From Chitinophagales bacterium (lineage in GTDB: Bacteria; Bacteroidota; Bacteroidia; Chitinophagales; CAIODY01), in the NCBI GenBank assembly GCA_947449695.1, contig CANFST010000021.1, forward strand, positions 1-44,157: a stretch of DNA of 44,157 bases, given 5' to 3'. Positions 13,005-35,855 of this stretch are shown here, in pieces; positions within the stretch are counted from its first letter, which is position 1, and each line of letters starts with the position of its first letter. The translations under genes were made by a program, and so were the position numbers. The notes beneath the pieces are model-generated. The model was not told where the DNA came from, made no database searches, and saw only the letters and a list, made by a program, of their open reading frames with translations.

Positions 13005-13530
13005 ACCAACTAAGGCACAGCAATTTGCTGAATTGATTTTAGCATTGCTTTTTTTATTGATTGTTTTCATGATTGCATCGTGCAATCCTGTAAAGTATGT
13101 ACTGAATAATAATGCAGAATTTGAAAAGATTTGTGCTGAATGCAATGTGCAGCATCCTTGCTACACTAAAACAGAAATTAAATTTAAAAAAGGGGATACG
13201 ATCACTAATACTATCACCCGAGTTGATACGATTACTAAGTATGATTCAGTTGAAAAAGTTTGGACAAAAACTGTCCAAAAATTTGTTACCAAAGACAGAA
13301 TTATTCGAGATACAGTTGAGATTTCACAACCTGATTTAAGGTTGATTAATCAACTGAATATTGCATTGAATAATGCTGAAAAGAAAGCTATTGAAGATGA
13401 AAAAAAATTGCAAACTGCTGAGTATCGTGGGGATAAATTAAGAGATTATTTAGTTGGTGAAAATGTGATTATTGGATTGCTCATCATCATTTATTTTTTA
13501 TTAAAATCAAAATTCAAACTGCCTGTGTAG
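12994..13530 (+). CDS. Unimolecular spanin-like lipoprotein
   Basis: A 178-residue protein. The N-terminus has a hydrophobic signal ending in the lipobox IASC with Cys30 as the likely lipidated residue. The periplasmic part (about 31-150) is beta-rich, then helical. The C-terminus has a membrane segment, IIGLLIIIYFLL, followed by a basic tail. An outer-membrane lipid anchor at one end and an inner-membrane helix at the other is the architecture of one-piece spanins such as T1 gp11, which fuse the two membranes at the end of lysis. Neighbours are holin-like and endolysin-like genes. Its TAG stop lies within the tRNA-like sequence. Confidence 0.7.
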   Translation: MNYKPTKAQQFAELILALLFLLIVFMIASCNPVKYVLNNNAEFEKICAECNVQHPCYTKTEIKFKKGDTITNTITRVDTITKYDSVEKVWTKTVQKFVTKDRIIRDTVEISQPDLRLINQLNIALNNAEKKAIEDEKKLQTAEYRGDKLRDYLVGENVIIGLLIIIYFLLKSKFKLPV

Positions 13531-13604
13531 CTCAGTTGGTTAGAGCATGTGATAAGCCCCGTAAGGTTCTATTTTGGTCGGTGGTTCGAGTCCATCAACA
13601 GGCG
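13521..13604 (+). tRNA. tRNA-like sequence with non-canonical anticodon arm
   Basis: Good tRNA features: acceptor GCCTGTG (13521-13527) pairs with AACAGGC (13597-13603) except the innermost pair; U8-A9; D-arm GCTC-AGTTGGTTA-GAGC (13530-13546); T-arm GGTGG-TTCGAGT-CCATC (13580-13596). The 32 bases between the D and T arms (13548-13579) do not form a five-pair stem with a seven-base loop. They can form GATA/AGCC with GGTT/TATT, with a bulge and a six-base loop. It may be a degraded tRNA, or one with an inserted or altered anticodon arm. The 5' end overlaps the end of the spanin-like gene. No amino acid is assigned. Confidence 0.55.
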
Positions 13605-13619
13605 CATAAATATTTTACC

Positions 13620-18536: not shown

Positions 18537-18569
18537 TTTGGAAAACAGGCAAACATTGGTATATATTTG
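18537..18569 (+). promoter_or_regulatory. Promoter of pseudoknot RNA copy 1
   Basis: TTTG (18537-18540), 21 bases, TATATTTG (18562-18569). The predicted RNA start, three to five bases downstream, coincides with the first base of helix A. The second copy at 33349 has the same TATATTTG box and the same relation to helix A. Confidence 0.7.
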
Positions 18570-18572
18570 CAA

Positions 18573-18692
18573 TGTCGAAACCAAATTAAAATGTTTAATC
18601 AACAATTTTTACTTCAAACTTTTTGCCCCAACGAATCCGTAAAATCGGGTTACTATTCAATTCATTTTGATTTGGTTCGACACGTTGGGGTA
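18573..18692 (+). ncRNA. Leader RNA with A-B-A'-B' pseudoknot, copy 1
   Basis: Helix P1: 18573-18593 pairs with 18663-18682, 20 pairs with one bulged A and one G-U. Helix P2: CCCCAACG (18626-18633) pairs with CGTTGGGG (18683-18690), plus two weaker pairs. Because one strand of P2 lies inside P1 and the other outside, the two form a pseudoknot, with A' and B' directly adjacent. Between B and A' is a hairpin, AATCCG (18634-18639) with CGGGTT (18646-18651). A' (18671-18682) is also perfectly complementary over 12 bases to 18719-18730, which spans the start codon region of the next gene. The second copy at 33383 keeps the fold with different P1 and P2 sequences. I do not recognise the family. Confidence 0.7.
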
Positions 18693-18717
18693 TTTTTTAA
18701 CAAACAAAATTCTTTTT

Positions 18718-19299
18718 ATGTCGAACCAAAAAGCAAACCAAAACGAAGCCACATTACCTGTTGCATTGAGTGATGAACTCAAAAAATTTATCAAAAAACA
18801 TTTTGAAGAAGGTTCTCCCCTAAAATTTAAAGAAGACTGGAGGCAATTTATCCGCTTTGCTGTATGCAATGAAAAACTGGATTTAGATAAAGAACAATGC
18901 CGAATAGGGTATTTATTTTTTGAAGATCAGATTGATGATTTGATAAATATTTGTCAGCTATTGATAAATCATTTTGAGCTTGATTATTTTACAAATTCAA
19001 AAGCGAAAAATAAATATTTAATATTCGATGAACAGCATATTGATGTTTTGGAAAAAATAAGCGAAGAAATATCAAAATCTACTTTTGAAGACAGATTTAA
19101 CCTGATGACACAAATGCTACAATTGAGATTGACCTTTAAATGGCATAAAGATTGGTCTACGGATGTTTACGACATTGAAAAACTTTTAGATTTGTATAAT
19201 GATACTGTAAGTATTTTCAAATGCTTTTTTGATGGTGGATTTATGGGGTATTCAGATCAAAGTTTTCATACATTTTATTCAAAAATTAAAATTGACTAA
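18718..19299 (+). CDS. Hypothetical cargo protein behind pseudoknot leader
   Basis: A 193-residue soluble protein, rich in Lys, Asp and Phe, with an N-terminal tail of Asn and Gln. It is not recognised. The frame is open upstream to 18667, but I chose ATG 18718: it follows the leader RNA and repeats the sequence at the RNA 5' end (ATGTCGAACCAAA compared with ATGTCGAAACCAAA at 18572). Its translation start can pair with the A' strand of the leader, so expression may be switched by RNA folding. It overlaps no other gene and is three bases before the next one. Its function may relate to host or phage defence as cargo, but nothing shows it. Confidence 0.65.
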   Translation: MSNQKANQNEATLPVALSDELKKFIKKHFEEGSPLKFKEDWRQFIRFAVCNEKLDLDKEQCRIGYLFFEDQIDDLINICQLLINHFELDYFTNSKAKNKYLIFDEQHIDVLEKISEEISKSTFEDRFNLMTQMLQLRLTFKWHKDWSTDVYDIEKLLDLYNDTVSIFKCFFDGGFMGYSDQSFHTFYSKIKID

Positions 19300-22872: not shown

Positions 22873-24764
22873 TGATTGAAGTAAAAACTAAAGAAGGGCA
22901 AATATTGGAATTGGAAGCTGGTGCAAAATTGGCTTTGCAGTATGTTTCTCCGTTTTTTACTGATTCCTTGGGTAATGCTGAATATAGTTTGCCCATTAAA
23001 TTGGTAGGTAGTGGTAAAAATAAAATTGCACTTGATTTTTTTGATAGAATAAAATCAAGTAATCGGTCAGTAAGTTTTAATGGCGTTACGGTGAAGGATG
23101 ATGGGATGAAGATTGCGCAAGATTTAAATTTGTATATTGATTCAGTTGTAGGGAATTTGAACAGCGGTAATGCAACATTTGAAGGGCAATTGATTGGTGC
23201 TAAAGATGTTTTTTTGCGTTGGTTGGGTAGTGATGAAAATGGTGGTGCTACTAAGAAATTGAGTGATGTAGGATTATTGCAACAAATGATTGCTAGACCT
23301 TCAGTATCAGCGGCAAGTTTTGCAAGCCCAAATGCTGTATCAAGGTGGGCAACTGATGTGGTATTAAACCCAAGTACAACGCCACATATTTGCTTCCCAA
23401 GCTACCATGTACCTAATTGGAATACTTATGGGGAATTTGCAGCAACCCCATCATTAAATATGCATTTAACGTTAAATGGAGTGATAAATGCTTGGGATAA
23501 TGCTAATAACAGGATGCACAGTGAAATACTTTCAGGTACTGATTTATATATTAATGAGGTAGTTCCCATGTTTAAGGTTTATTGGGTTATTGAGCAAATA
23601 TTGGCTGATGCTGGTTATACGATTGGGAATGCACCAATATTAAATGATGCAGATTTTAAGAAAATATATGTGTTCAACAATGTTTCTATAACACCATTTG
23701 ATACTACAAATGGGAATTATGAATATGATGGTTTTTTTGTCGCTCCATCTAATCACATGCCCGATAAGTTGGTTTCAGATTGGTTGAATGAAATATCAAT
23801 TATTTTTGGCTTGAAGTTTTATTTCAAGCCTGATAATTCAGTTGATATATTTCAGTATAATGAATTACTGAATATTTCTGACAATGATGACTGGACAAAT
23901 AAAGTTGATGCAAATTTTATGAAAACTGGTACTGGTGCTGACTTGATTGGGTTAACACTGGGCTATGGTGGGTATGATTCAGAAAATTTACTTGGCGATG
24001 CGTTAAAAAAAGTGGAAAGTATTTATACAGCAATTGATAATGGGACATATACAATTGTTGCAAATAAAGCTGCATTGGGAAGCTATTCAGCAGGTACTGT
24101 GATTTTTGTAAAAAGTGAGAATACTTTTTATCAATCGCAGCCAGATAGTTCAAACCAATTGATTGGAGATAATTTACAACGCATTAAAGTATTGGATGGT
24201 AAAAAATCTATTTTATCAAATACCATTACACATAATAACATCATTAATCCAAATTATGGGGTTACGGCTTGGCAGCCAGTAAGTGATTGCTCAATGAGTC
24301 GAATAAAAGTAAAGGTTATAAGTTATACAATTACTGTCCCTGTACCTGTTCCGGGTACATTTTATAGGTCATACTATCAAGGTGTGGCAATACAACCATT
24401 TGTTTCAGCAATTGGCATTTATCACGGATTTCAAACTGTAATGGCTGGAACGTTCCCATTCGGCTCAAGCAATAATTATGCGCCTGATTCAACTACACAG
24501 CTAAATGCTTGGCATTTGGGATGGGTGGGTAGTGAGGGTTTGTATGAAACATTTTGGAAAAAGTGGGCTGAGTTTTTGGTAAAAATGATTACTGTAAAAT
24601 TCCCAATGTATTTGAATGCAAATGATTTGGCTACGCTGGATTATTCGAAGAAAAAAAGAATTAACGGGGTAAATTATTATTTGAAAAGCCTGAAAGTTGA
24701 ATTCCCATTGAGTGGAGGTAAGCAAGAGGGTGAGTTTGTATTGGCCGAAGGAATTGATTTATAA
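22872..24764 (+). CDS. Large tail tip / baseplate protein 1
   Basis: A 630-residue soluble protein rich in Gly, Asn, Ser and aromatic residues, with no signal peptide. Coming directly after the tape measure, it is in the position of distal tail or tail-tip proteins. The N-terminal residues (IEVKTKEGQILELEAGAKLALQ) look like a beta domain that could attach to the tail tube. Specific function is inferred from position. It is 20 bases before the next tail gene. Confidence 0.65.
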   Translation: MIEVKTKEGQILELEAGAKLALQYVSPFFTDSLGNAEYSLPIKLVGSGKNKIALDFFDRIKSSNRSVSFNGVTVKDDGMKIAQDLNLYIDSVVGNLNSGNATFEGQLIGAKDVFLRWLGSDENGGATKKLSDVGLLQQMIARPSVSAASFASPNAVSRWATDVVLNPSTTPHICFPSYHVPNWNTYGEFAATPSLNMHLTLNGVINAWDNANNRMHSEILSGTDLYINEVVPMFKVYWVIEQILADAGYTIGNAPILNDADFKKIYVFNNVSITPFDTTNGNYEYDGFFVAPSNHMPDKLVSDWLNEISIIFGLKFYFKPDNSVDIFQYNELLNISDNDDWTNKVDANFMKTGTGADLIGLTLGYGGYDSENLLGDALKKVESIYTAIDNGTYTIVANKAALGSYSAGTVIFVKSENTFYQSQPDSSNQLIGDNLQRIKVLDGKKSILSNTITHNNIINPNYGVTAWQPVSDCSMSRIKVKVISYTITVPVPVPGTFYRSYYQGVAIQPFVSAIGIYHGFQTVMAGTFPFGSSNNYAPDSTTQLNAWHLGWVGSEGLYETFWKKWAEFLVKMITVKFPMYLNANDLATLDYSKKKRINGVNYYLKSLKVEFPLSGGKQEGEFVLAEGIDL

Positions 24765-24783
24765 AAATTAAAATTGAATAAAT

Positions 24784-26337
24784 ATGAGTTTGACAATTTT
24801 GGAAGAACCTGGTGAAATGAGTTTGAGCAGAAACCCTGTAAGGATTGCTGTGAATACTTCACTTGGCAACGCTGCTGGTGTGAAAATTGAATTGGGTGTA
24901 TATGTTGAAACGATTGCTTTTAGTGGCAATTTCAGTAAGCTATATGCTGAAGATTTAACCCCCGATACGAATGGCAATGTAGTTTTTCAATTGGAGAAAT
25001 ATTTTGATGATGCTTTGGATTGGTTTATGCCTGAGTGGAGTAAACCAATGGGTAGGGTTGCTGAAGGTGTACGTCAGTTTTATTATGAAGTAATTGAGTA
25101 TAACAATGGCTCCATTCTTTCAAATTATAATCCTTGGGCAGGTGGCCCAGGCACTCCTTTTAAAATAATTTATAAGGGTGGTGTGCCTAAAGAACAATGG
25201 CGCAAAAATTATTTTTTCAGTCATTTTATTACTGGGAATAACGCAGGGTTAAGCAATTGGTGGCAGTATGATATTAAGTATTTGCCAGTGGGTTTATATC
25301 AACCTTATTGGCTGATGATGCAATGTAGAAATGCTACTGGGTATGCTAATCCGCAATTGGTTACAACAGTGTATTGGAATGATGGGACAAATACTGTTGT
25401 GAGTACTAATGTGCCTGAATTAAAAACTGGTGCTACGTTTAAATCGGCTTATGGTGGCTTATATTATTTTGCTGTGGGGATTGATCAATTGCAATTGGAG
25501 GCTTTAAGTAGTACTAAACAAATTGATTATTACACTGTGGAGTTAAACGATGGAGGTACCCAAATTGGCAGCAGAGCATGGTTTAAAGCTATTTATGAGT
25601 TAAGCTCGAAGGATAGGGCTTTGCTTGTAAATAATAGCTTGGGGGGGGTTGAAACTGTACGTTATTTCTATCAAGAACAAACTGGCATTCAGTTAGATGA
25701 AAGCAGGGGCGAATCTATCACTGATGATATTGGCAATGGGCGGATAATTGGGAAGCAATTTTTTAGCAATAGCATTCAAGAGCAGGTGAAACGGGTGGGC
25801 AATACTGGTAATTTGAGTAAGCAAATTATTGACCATTATCGTCAGGTTTTATTAGCTGAAAATATTTATGAAATTATCAGAAGTACTCCTTCGGCACCAA
25901 TTGGTATTGGGAATAGAGGTGTTAGATTTATTCCTATTCAACGTGATAGTATGAAGATTGCTTTACGAATAAAGAATGAGGATTCGGTAATTAATTCAAT
26001 GGTGATGGAGTATAGCTTGGCTTTGAAAAATAGTAGCTATGCGCCTGAAAATTTAGATACTAATTTATTTAGAATGGATGCTGGATATGGTTATTCGTTT
26101 ACTTTCCCTGCCTTGCCTACTGGCGATGCTTATTATATTTCTGCATGGCCTGGGTTCTTTTCTCCATCGCCATCGGGTATTGATTTTAACTCGAAAGAAA
26201 CTTTGTTATTGTGGGTAATTGGTAATTGGGGAACATTTGGCTATTGGTCAATTGATATGGATGGGAATTTGCAATTGGATTCAGATGTAAATTATGGAAC
26301 GCTTGCAGCTACTGCAGTATTTATTCAAACACACTAA
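24784..26337 (+). CDS. Large tail tip / baseplate protein 2
   Basis: A 517-residue protein, beta-rich with many Gly, Asn, Trp and Tyr residues, typical of tail-tip or receptor-contacting proteins. It contains a run of eight G at 25641-25648 within codons for LGGV, striking for this genome and possibly a slippage site that could switch the frame. It is two bases before the next gene. The exact role is not known. Confidence 0.6.
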   Translation: MSLTILEEPGEMSLSRNPVRIAVNTSLGNAAGVKIELGVYVETIAFSGNFSKLYAEDLTPDTNGNVVFQLEKYFDDALDWFMPEWSKPMGRVAEGVRQFYYEVIEYNNGSILSNYNPWAGGPGTPFKIIYKGGVPKEQWRKNYFFSHFITGNNAGLSNWWQYDIKYLPVGLYQPYWLMMQCRNATGYANPQLVTTVYWNDGTNTVVSTNVPELKTGATFKSAYGGLYYFAVGIDQLQLEALSSTKQIDYYTVELNDGGTQIGSRAWFKAIYELSSKDRALLVNNSLGGVETVRYFYQEQTGIQLDESRGESITDDIGNGRIIGKQFFSNSIQEQVKRVGNTGNLSKQIIDHYRQVLLAENIYEIIRSTPSAPIGIGNRGVRFIPIQRDSMKIALRIKNEDSVINSMVMEYSLALKNSSYAPENLDTNLFRMDAGYGYSFTFPALPTGDAYYISAWPGFFSPSPSGIDFNSKETLLLWVIGNWGTFGYWSIDMDGNLQLDSDVNYGTLAATAVFIQTH

Positions 26338-33348: not shown

Positions 33349-33379
33349 TTTGCTTTTATATTTCGGGCAATTATATTTG
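33349..33379 (+). promoter_or_regulatory. Promoter of pseudoknot RNA copy 2
   Basis: TTTG (33349-33352), 19 bases, TATATTTG (33372-33379), with the predicted RNA start at the beginning of helix A. Its start overlaps the end of the preceding gene's stop region by nothing; the gap is short. Confidence 0.7.
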
Positions 33380-33382
33380 CAA

Positions 33383-33518
33383 TGTTTCGCAAACAACTGT
33401 AATTATAATGATTTACCAACTTCAAAATCTATTTTCAAAATCCGCCGTGCAATCCGTATCCAATCGGGTTAACCTTGTAACTTCATTGTTACAGTTGTTT
33501 GCGACCACGGCGGATTTT
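33383..33518 (+). ncRNA. Leader RNA with A-B-A'-B' pseudoknot, copy 2
   Basis: P1: TCGCAAACAACTGTAA (33387-33402) pairs perfectly with 33489-33504, and AATG (33407-33410) adds four pairs with CATT (33484-33487). P2: AAAATCCGCCGTG (33437-33449) pairs perfectly, 13 of 13, with CACGGCGGATTTT (33506-33518). One base separates A' and B'. P3: AATCCG (33451-33456) pairs with CGGGTT (33465-33470), same sequence as copy 1. ACTTCAAA before helix B (33419-33426) is also shared with copy 1 (18611-18618). A' is complementary over 11 bases to the start region 33544-33554. P2 followed by T-rich sequence could also act as an intrinsic terminator. Confidence 0.7.
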
Positions 33519-33540: not shown

Positions 33541-33816
33541 ATGTCGCAAACAACAGAAACAACCAAGCCAAGCAACCAAGACTTAAATACAGTTGCTGAT
33601 TTCATCAAGTGGTTTATCCAGCCACGATATTCTTGCATTCAAAATGAAGAATTTAAAGAAAAGCATATCGTTGATACTTTGAGTATTTATACTGAAATGC
33701 AAGATATTTTGCAAAATGAAATGATTACAATGGCTGATTTAACTACCTACTTAATTCAACATGATTTTGAATTAAGCGAAACTTCATTATGGATATGCTG
33801 GGCGAAAACTAAATAA
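33541..33816 (+). CDS. Hypothetical cargo protein behind pseudoknot leader (91 aa)
   Basis: A small soluble protein of 91 residues. The N-terminal 15 residues are Thr, Gln, Lys-rich and look flexible. The rest is mostly helical with three tryptophans. It shows no obvious similarity to the gene behind copy 1 except a polar start beginning Met-Ser. The start region repeats the 5' end of the leader (TCGCAAACAAC at 33387 and 33544). It ends one base before the stop of the convergent integrase gene. It is likely expressed in the lysogen; role unknown. Confidence 0.65.
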   Translation: MSQTTETTKPSNQDLNTVADFIKWFIQPRYSCIQNEEFKEKHIVDTLSIYTEMQDILQNEMITMADLTTYLIQHDFELSETSLWICWAKTK

Positions 33817-35818: not shown

Positions 35819-35855
35819 TTGACTTTTGTCAACTCATTGCTTTACATTTGCAATG
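35819..35855. promoter_or_regulatory. Lysis-lysogeny control region with palindromic operators
   Basis: On the plus strand, TTG (35819-35821), 21 bases, TACATTTG (35843-35850) is a promoter for the Cro-like gene. Two palindromes overlap it: TTGAC-TTTT-GTCAA (35819-35832) covers the -33 site, and CATTGC-N9-GCAATG (35835-35855) covers the -7 site. Binding of a repressor here would block this promoter. The minus-strand promoter is not obvious. Confidence 0.7.

Follow-up and report, generated by a model that had tools for sequence, protein, structure and literature searches.

The antisense immunity leaders described previously come from a small number of enterobacterial phages (P1/P7, P4, and Gifsy-1). 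The c4 RNA of P1 and P7 is a sequence-specific antisense RNA and forms the basis of heteroimmunity (PMC12197685). The linear plan of P1 is promoter-a1-b1-(b'a')-a2-b2-icd, and c4 represses the translation of icd/ant. The CI RNA of satellite phage P4 is an antisense which is flanked, on one transcript, by a complementary upstream sequence (seqA) and a complementary downstream sequence (seqC) (PMC4825925). IsrK of Gifsy-1 is a prophage RNA found both as a short form and as an mRNA leader, and it affects the translation of a small ORF (PMC4825925, PMC12197685). Phage gene control is poorly known in Bacteroidota, and the data described here point to an independent, widespread version of such leaders in phages whose Bacteroidota hosts are gut, oral, or marine bacteria or fish pathogens. 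No earlier account of this leader class was found in the literature covered, with many subscription papers lying outside that coverage.

The window, which is the whole stretch of 44,157 nucleotides analysed, is a prophage contig from a Chitinophagales bacterium and encodes a DNA primase, a head protease, a tail tape measure protein, and an integrase. It contains two leaders of the same layout, in which a TAnnTTTG promoter, the motif of the Bacteroidota primary sigma factor (PMC7366714), is followed by strand A, strand B, a small hairpin, strand A', and strand B'. An earlier note on this DNA had described the order A-B-A'-B' behind a promoter, with A paired to A' and B to B' in both copies, and had placed a small cargo gene after each. 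This was confirmed: copy 1 has 20 pairs for A:A' and 10 for B:B', copy 2 has 17+4 and 13 respectively, and orphan genes of 193 and 91 aa lie downstream. The features are listed below.

18562..18569, + strand: copy 1 box TATATTTG, a Bacteroidota primary-sigma -7 box, expected to set the transcript 5' end at strand A, a few nt further on
18573..18593, + strand: copy 1 strand A, the expected RNA 5' end and a mimic of the gene start, pairing with A'
18624..18633, + strand: copy 1 strand B, 10 pairs with B'
18634..18651, + strand: copy 1 small hairpin, AATCCG-TAAAAT-CGGGTT
18663..18682, + strand: copy 1 strand A', 20 pairs with A and one bulge; its 3' 12 nt (18671-18682) pair alternatively with the gene start
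18683..18692, + strand: copy 1 strand B', directly adjoining A', with T6 next at 18693-18698
18719..18730, + strand: copy 1 site S, from the U of AUG to codon 5, 12 perfect pairs with A' 18671-18682
18718..19299, + strand: copy 1 cargo gene, 193 aa, orphan
33372..33379, + strand: copy 2 box TATATTTG, a -7 box
33387..33410, + strand: copy 2 strand A, 17 pairs, a bulge, and AATG (17+4 pairs with A')
33437..33449, + strand: copy 2 strand B, 13 pairs with B'
33451..33470, + strand: copy 2 small hairpin, AATCCG-TATCCAAT-CGGGTT
33484..33504, + strand: copy 2 strand A'
33506..33518, + strand: copy 2 strand B', 13 pairs with B, with a U-rich stretch next
33543..33554, + strand: copy 2 site S, from the G of AUG to codon 5, 12 perfect pairs with 33494-33505
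33541..33816, + strand: copy 2 cargo gene, 91 aa, adjoining the integrase

Both helices are fully paired in each copy, and their sequences are unrelated between the copies. The exact box TATATTTGCAATG occurs twice in the whole window, as does the AATCCG/CGGGTT hairpin pattern, for which 0.00 occurrences are expected by chance. Since A' and B' are separated by 0-1 nt in both copies, the helices A:A' and B:B' can stack on a continuous A'B' strand. Their junction is the expected site of the RNA 5' end, as A starts a few nt after the -7 box.

The fold had been described as free-standing. The fold itself stood; its independence from the gene did not, because A' was found to be complementary also to the start of the downstream gene, with 12 Watson-Crick pairs in each copy. 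Strand A is in turn a near copy of that gene start (TGTCGAAaCCAAA / aTGTCGAACCAAA in copy 1 and TCGCAAACAAC / atgTCGCAAACAAC in copy 2). A' thus has two competing partners, A and S, and this coupling makes the likely function different from that of a free-standing fold.

Further copies were sought by pairing, because fixed-sequence patterns failed. Patterns of the type CTTCAAA..AATCCG..CGGGTT and TTTGCA..AATCCG..CGGGTT gave nothing but chance matches when IMG/VR and 299 genomes were searched. In IMG/VR there was also no match to the L1 pattern derived from the G098 paralogues, and BLASTN with the copy 1 leader gave none. The pattern TTCAAA..AATCCGTA..TTCATT returned one true relative, from the same phage element as L150. 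The class is defined by pairing; the variable stems were misaligned by MAFFT, and the pseudoknot is not representable in Infernal. Fetched DNA was scanned with a promoter-anchored grammar (TAnnTTTG, A, B, A', B', S) and a joint score for A:A' + B:B' + A':S, which is 78 and 101.5 for the two window copies. When both strands of about 2.6 Mb of fetched loci were scanned, 15 scores of at least 65 were found compared with none in dinucleotide shuffles (maximum 60.5), and an additional 0.61 Mb gave 4 compared with none. The maximum in 800 kb of chromosome was 64, so that none reached 65. Scores of at least 65 at L251, L354 rc10110, L304 29220, and L326 22702 were simple-repeat artefacts and were left uncounted, while L292, L358, and L373, which score below 65, were accepted as members on inspection. 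After removal of duplicates and simple repeats the total is about 20 members. The expectation of further copies with conserved pairing was thus borne out by about 18 members beyond the window, in phages and prophages, each with its own stem sequences.

These members occur in Polaribacter phage Leef_1, Flavobacterium phage 6H, Cellulophaga phage Ingeline_1, Porphyromonas phage030a, the Chitinophagales phage contig G098:C268 (3 or 4 members), G361 (one, identical to IMG/VR 3300003406_000174), and the prophages of G399, G493, G613, G772, G449, G088, and G239. The promoter lies 2-9 nt before A across the members, and about half of them have a terminator-like hairpin and/or a U-tract directly after B'. 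The hairpin AATCCG/CGGGTT, which the earlier note took to be conserved, is present in both window copies and specific to them; other members have other hairpins at that place, and the next relative (L150/L294) keeps AATCCGTA, with CCG pairing upstream instead. G098:C268 (L163, L299; MAG contig JAHDIA010000002) is a 43.6-kb phage contig with as many as four leaders, and two of these (L299 rc 344 and rc 659) stand in tandem, 315 nt apart, before a single HNH gene. A second leader also occurs in the phage of copy 3 (L295 rc 13310, IMG/VR 3300003406_000174, also G361); the reading frame that follows it has no obvious start codon, so that it is either a degenerate cargo or one with an unusual start. 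A different element in IMG/VR, L192 rc 7895, consists of TAATTTTG and then a 20-bp inverted repeat that encloses the T-loop-like hairpin GGTTTGAATCC. It lies before a 218-aa reading frame and shows no start-codon complementarity.

Pairing of A' with the gene start is anchored on the start codon. In 13/20 members it begins at +1 to +3 relative to the A of AUG (about 2e-11 under uniform position), and it typically runs from the U of AUG as far as codons 4-6, with a target of 8-18 nt. The duplex energies of A:A' and A':S are alike in size (for example, -26.7 vs. -22.5, -17.9 vs. -21.7, and -14.5 vs. -21.1), and such near-equal values fit competing pairings, as a switch needs. A':S is weak or absent in about 5 of the 20 members (L165, L156, L361, L358, and L292). 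In the first four of these B' ends 4-7 nt before the start codon, and B:B' itself may do the work there.

Cross-matching of the 20 members found the own A' to be the best partner of A in 20/20, the own B' of B in 14/20, and the own S of A' in 15/20, and none of 20,000 permutations was as high as the observed sums (A x A', B x B', A' x S). The score by which the members were selected included A:A', B:B', and the best downstream match, so this matrix test is not fully independent. BLAST with the leaders gave homologous relatives free of this bias, among them a series of six Porphyromonas phages, which was gathered in this way and not by structure. In that series joint changes of A, A', and S occur at 4 of 10 positions (columns 30/149/209, 34/145/213, 35/144/214, and 36/143/215 for A/A'/S). 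All cells (100%) are paired both for A:A'+B:B' and for A':S, with no broken pair. When the partner was slid by 1-3 columns to either side, 0 compensatory changes remained, and shuffles gave 0-2 of 500. The allele types are CCAACGACA, CCAAAGACA, and GGCAAACTCA, and the gene start varies between MPTTL, MPKTL, and MANSL while the pairing persists. Among these six phages the loops diverge most (0.26), followed by A, A', and S (0.16), the gene body (0.09), and B (0.02). The specificity strands therefore diverge faster than the gene they start, with each change compensated. The G098 paralogues L163b and L299a keep the scaffold, and 3/3 variable S positions are matched in A and A'. In the Flavobacterium phages 6H, 2A, FPSV-F7, and FPSV-D15 three A:A' pairs covary; between 6H and 2A, GACTAAA/TTTAGTC/ATGACTAAA becomes GCAAAAA/TTTTTGC/ATGCAAAAA. 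Here S follows A:A' when the sequences are read, and no tool count is given because the alignment shifts the S column by one. The suggestion that unrelated stems with kept pairing represent covariation was thus upheld by the cross-match and by the compensatory changes, and the earlier reading of a selected pseudoknot leader RNA of Bacteroidota phages, not recognised before, is supported. These sequence comparisons establish that the pairings among A, A', and the gene start and between B and B' are under selection, and the co-change of A, A', and the gene start points to an undescribed built-in antisense switch.

The Bacteroidota leaders share with c4 a phage leader under a host-type promoter and a similar linear plan. 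The roles of a1 and b1, which are complementary to a' and b', are filled by A and B in pseudoknot order, and a site resembling a2, S, occurs in about 15/20 members. A site resembling b2, where B' would be repeated at the target, was not seen by eye in copy 1. The differences are that the P1 order a1-b1-b'-a' is nested whereas A-B-A'-B' forms a pseudoknot, and that P1 has targets of 7-8 nt upstream of the icd start codon whereas the targets here are 8-18 nt long and lie on the start codon. Furthermore, the leaders have no conserved c4 core and occur in several different copies per phage. The Rfam c4 models (RF01695, with c4-a1b1 as RF03163) gave no match in the window, in its two leaders at E<=5, or in L290, L326, L163, and L378, while P1 itself scored 68.8 bits with the same tool. 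No Rfam family matches these leaders. The order A-A'-S on one transcript, found in both window copies and most members, resembles that of P4 CI, and the U-tracts or hairpins after B' are compatible with premature termination of the P4 CI style. P4 CI differs in that it acts by transcription termination and belongs to an enterobacterial satellite, and it is not known to have a second paired strand of the B/B' kind. IsrK differs in its structure and as a reported activator of orf45/anrP. Type III toxin-antitoxin systems (ToxI) also place a pseudoknot RNA, a terminator, and a small gene under one promoter. In contrast to these, the leaders pair with the gene start and lack tandem repeats and a ToxN-like protein: a direct-repeat search of the two window leaders found no tandem antitoxin RNA repeats, and the window cargoes P0001 and P0002 had no family-level match in Pfam or PADLOC to the ToxN/CptN/TenpN toxin families. 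By analogy, the best reading is that the leaders would work like the P1 c4 and P4 CI immunity RNAs without being members of c4, as they match no Rfam family, are pseudoknotted rather than nested, and have the start codon as their target.

From the sequences, it is probable that each copy is a self-contained antisense leader riboregulator which controls the translation of an accessory phage gene. The RNA would start at strand A, just past TAnnTTTG. A' would serve as the antisense strand against the downstream gene's start, and strand A as a 5' decoy of that start which competes for A'. With A' on the gene start, ribosomes would be kept off the cargo gene; with A' held by A, or by a second leader RNA in trans, the start would be free. 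B:B' would act as, or compete with, a terminator, releasing a short leader RNA, in keeping with the U-tract often found after B'. Given the hairpins inside B', B:B' could terminate or antiterminate. Repression of translation by pairing at S, termination after B', and the trigger are parts of this scheme that we infer. An action partly in trans, comparable to P1/P7 c4 heteroimmunity, is preferred because A, A', and S diverge fast yet are always compensated between close relatives. A wider proposal, which we put forward tentatively, is that these leaders constitute a phylum-wide RNA class of Bacteroidota phages whose members share almost no primary sequence. Each pseudoknotted leader would contain both an antisense to the start codon of its gene and a 5' decoy of that start. 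Such leaders would diversify under selection for allele specificity, as an RNA code for superinfection immunity or gene exclusion, with several per phage before exchangeable cargo genes.

A device acting purely in cis, similar to a riboswitch or attenuator, would use the same parts, which all lie on one transcript and are made in the order A, A', S. Co-transcriptional A:A' and B:B' would then be the ON state, and a ribosome, protein, or ligand taking A or B would free A' to close the start codon and let B' form a terminator. The comparable energies of A:A' and A':S agree with this, as do the hairpins inside B' that B:B' would disrupt (L163a, L163b, L299a, Leef, Porphyromonas, and L378). However, the members have no conserved ligand-like core, their sequence being almost free besides pairing, and a cis-only device would not need A, A', and S to diverge so fast relative to the gene body and B, which renders this explanation unlikely. 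The leader might instead be the RNA antitoxin of a toxin-antitoxin or abortive-infection module, silencing a toxic or anti-phage cargo such as an HNH nuclease. Two cargoes are HNH paralogues, of which the one scanned matches the defence models PDC-M01B and PtuB (best 3.8e-7), the cargoes are small, variable orphans, and in P1 the division inhibitor Icd is likewise under the control of c4 (PMC11897509). Most cargoes are without a match to defence or toxin models, and this role is considered improbable.

If the structure served only to stabilise the mRNA, strand A would seal the RNA 5' end at which it lies, and its likeness to the gene start would be a by-product. This is very improbable, as it is contradicted by the triple covariation, in which S co-varies with A' despite the amino-acid cost, and by the anchoring on the start codon. 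The repeats of 12-20 bp, both inverted and direct, could also be features of the DNA, such as operator half-sites, recombination sites, or cassette attachment sites. Such an origin is scarcely credible in view of the two different interlocked pairings, the promoter 2-9 nt before A, the start-codon anchoring, the U-tract after B', and the freely varying sequence. Readings that were ruled out include a target-site duplication left by a transposon, since A:A' reaches past the direct repeat and the three sequences S, A, and A' change in concert; a leader peptide conserved on A, since the reading frames differ between copies 1 and 2; and the Porphyromonas leader as a coding sequence, since its T-run varies in length from 6 to 9.

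Protein searches with both window cargo proteins found nothing, and for the 193-aa protein no Pfam family and no relative was found in 299 genomes of the order, IMG/VR, or INPHARED. The 91-aa protein gave a low-confidence winged-helix model (pLDDT 62) with no match below E 0.08 in the PDB. It is perhaps related to the cargoes of L361, L369, L165, and L156, judging by sequence identities of 15-20%, which are not significant, and a small winged-helix cargo family is possible. The two HNH cargoes of G098 are 63% identical to each other, and an HNH search of genome contigs returned the known contig and distant HNH proteins, and nothing else. Recurrence of the downstream genes, to which the earlier note had also looked, found weak support: the cargoes are small orphans, the two HNH paralogues, and the possible winged-helix family. 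Porphyromonas phage Kyudai3 has the leader and first ~26 codons as in SJD11, while the remainder of the gene differs. In Flavobacterium phage 6H (L325 rc 39024) the leader is intact and the cargo is shortened to 34 aa, running into the tape measure gene; in its relatives 2A and FPSV-D15 the cargo gene stays open over a greater length.

Since the leader sequence is almost free to vary, homology-based RNA searches such as Rfam cannot find the class. The triple code of A, A', and the start makes testable predictions and offers a route to hidden accessory genes and true start codons, and possibly to programmable orthogonal RNA switches for Bacteroidota. In the Porphyromonas phage records BK068106, BK068110, and BK068103 (L409, L410, and L412) the depositors' CDS starts inside or just before the leader, and in Polaribacter phage Leef_1 (L304) the called start of CDS 24539-24991 is the ATG within the TATGTTTG box itself. 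The start codons of these CDS are probably wrong, with RNA annotated as protein. Elsewhere in the window, ARAGORN and Rfam agree on a tRNA-like gene at 13521-13605, of undetermined anticodon, within the phage late region. At 35843-35855, in the immunity region, TACATTTGCAATG is a promoter-like box with one mismatch to the leader box and no leader structure, and it sits upstream of a short reading frame beginning MAKSVKKLKSLSEIKRKAY.
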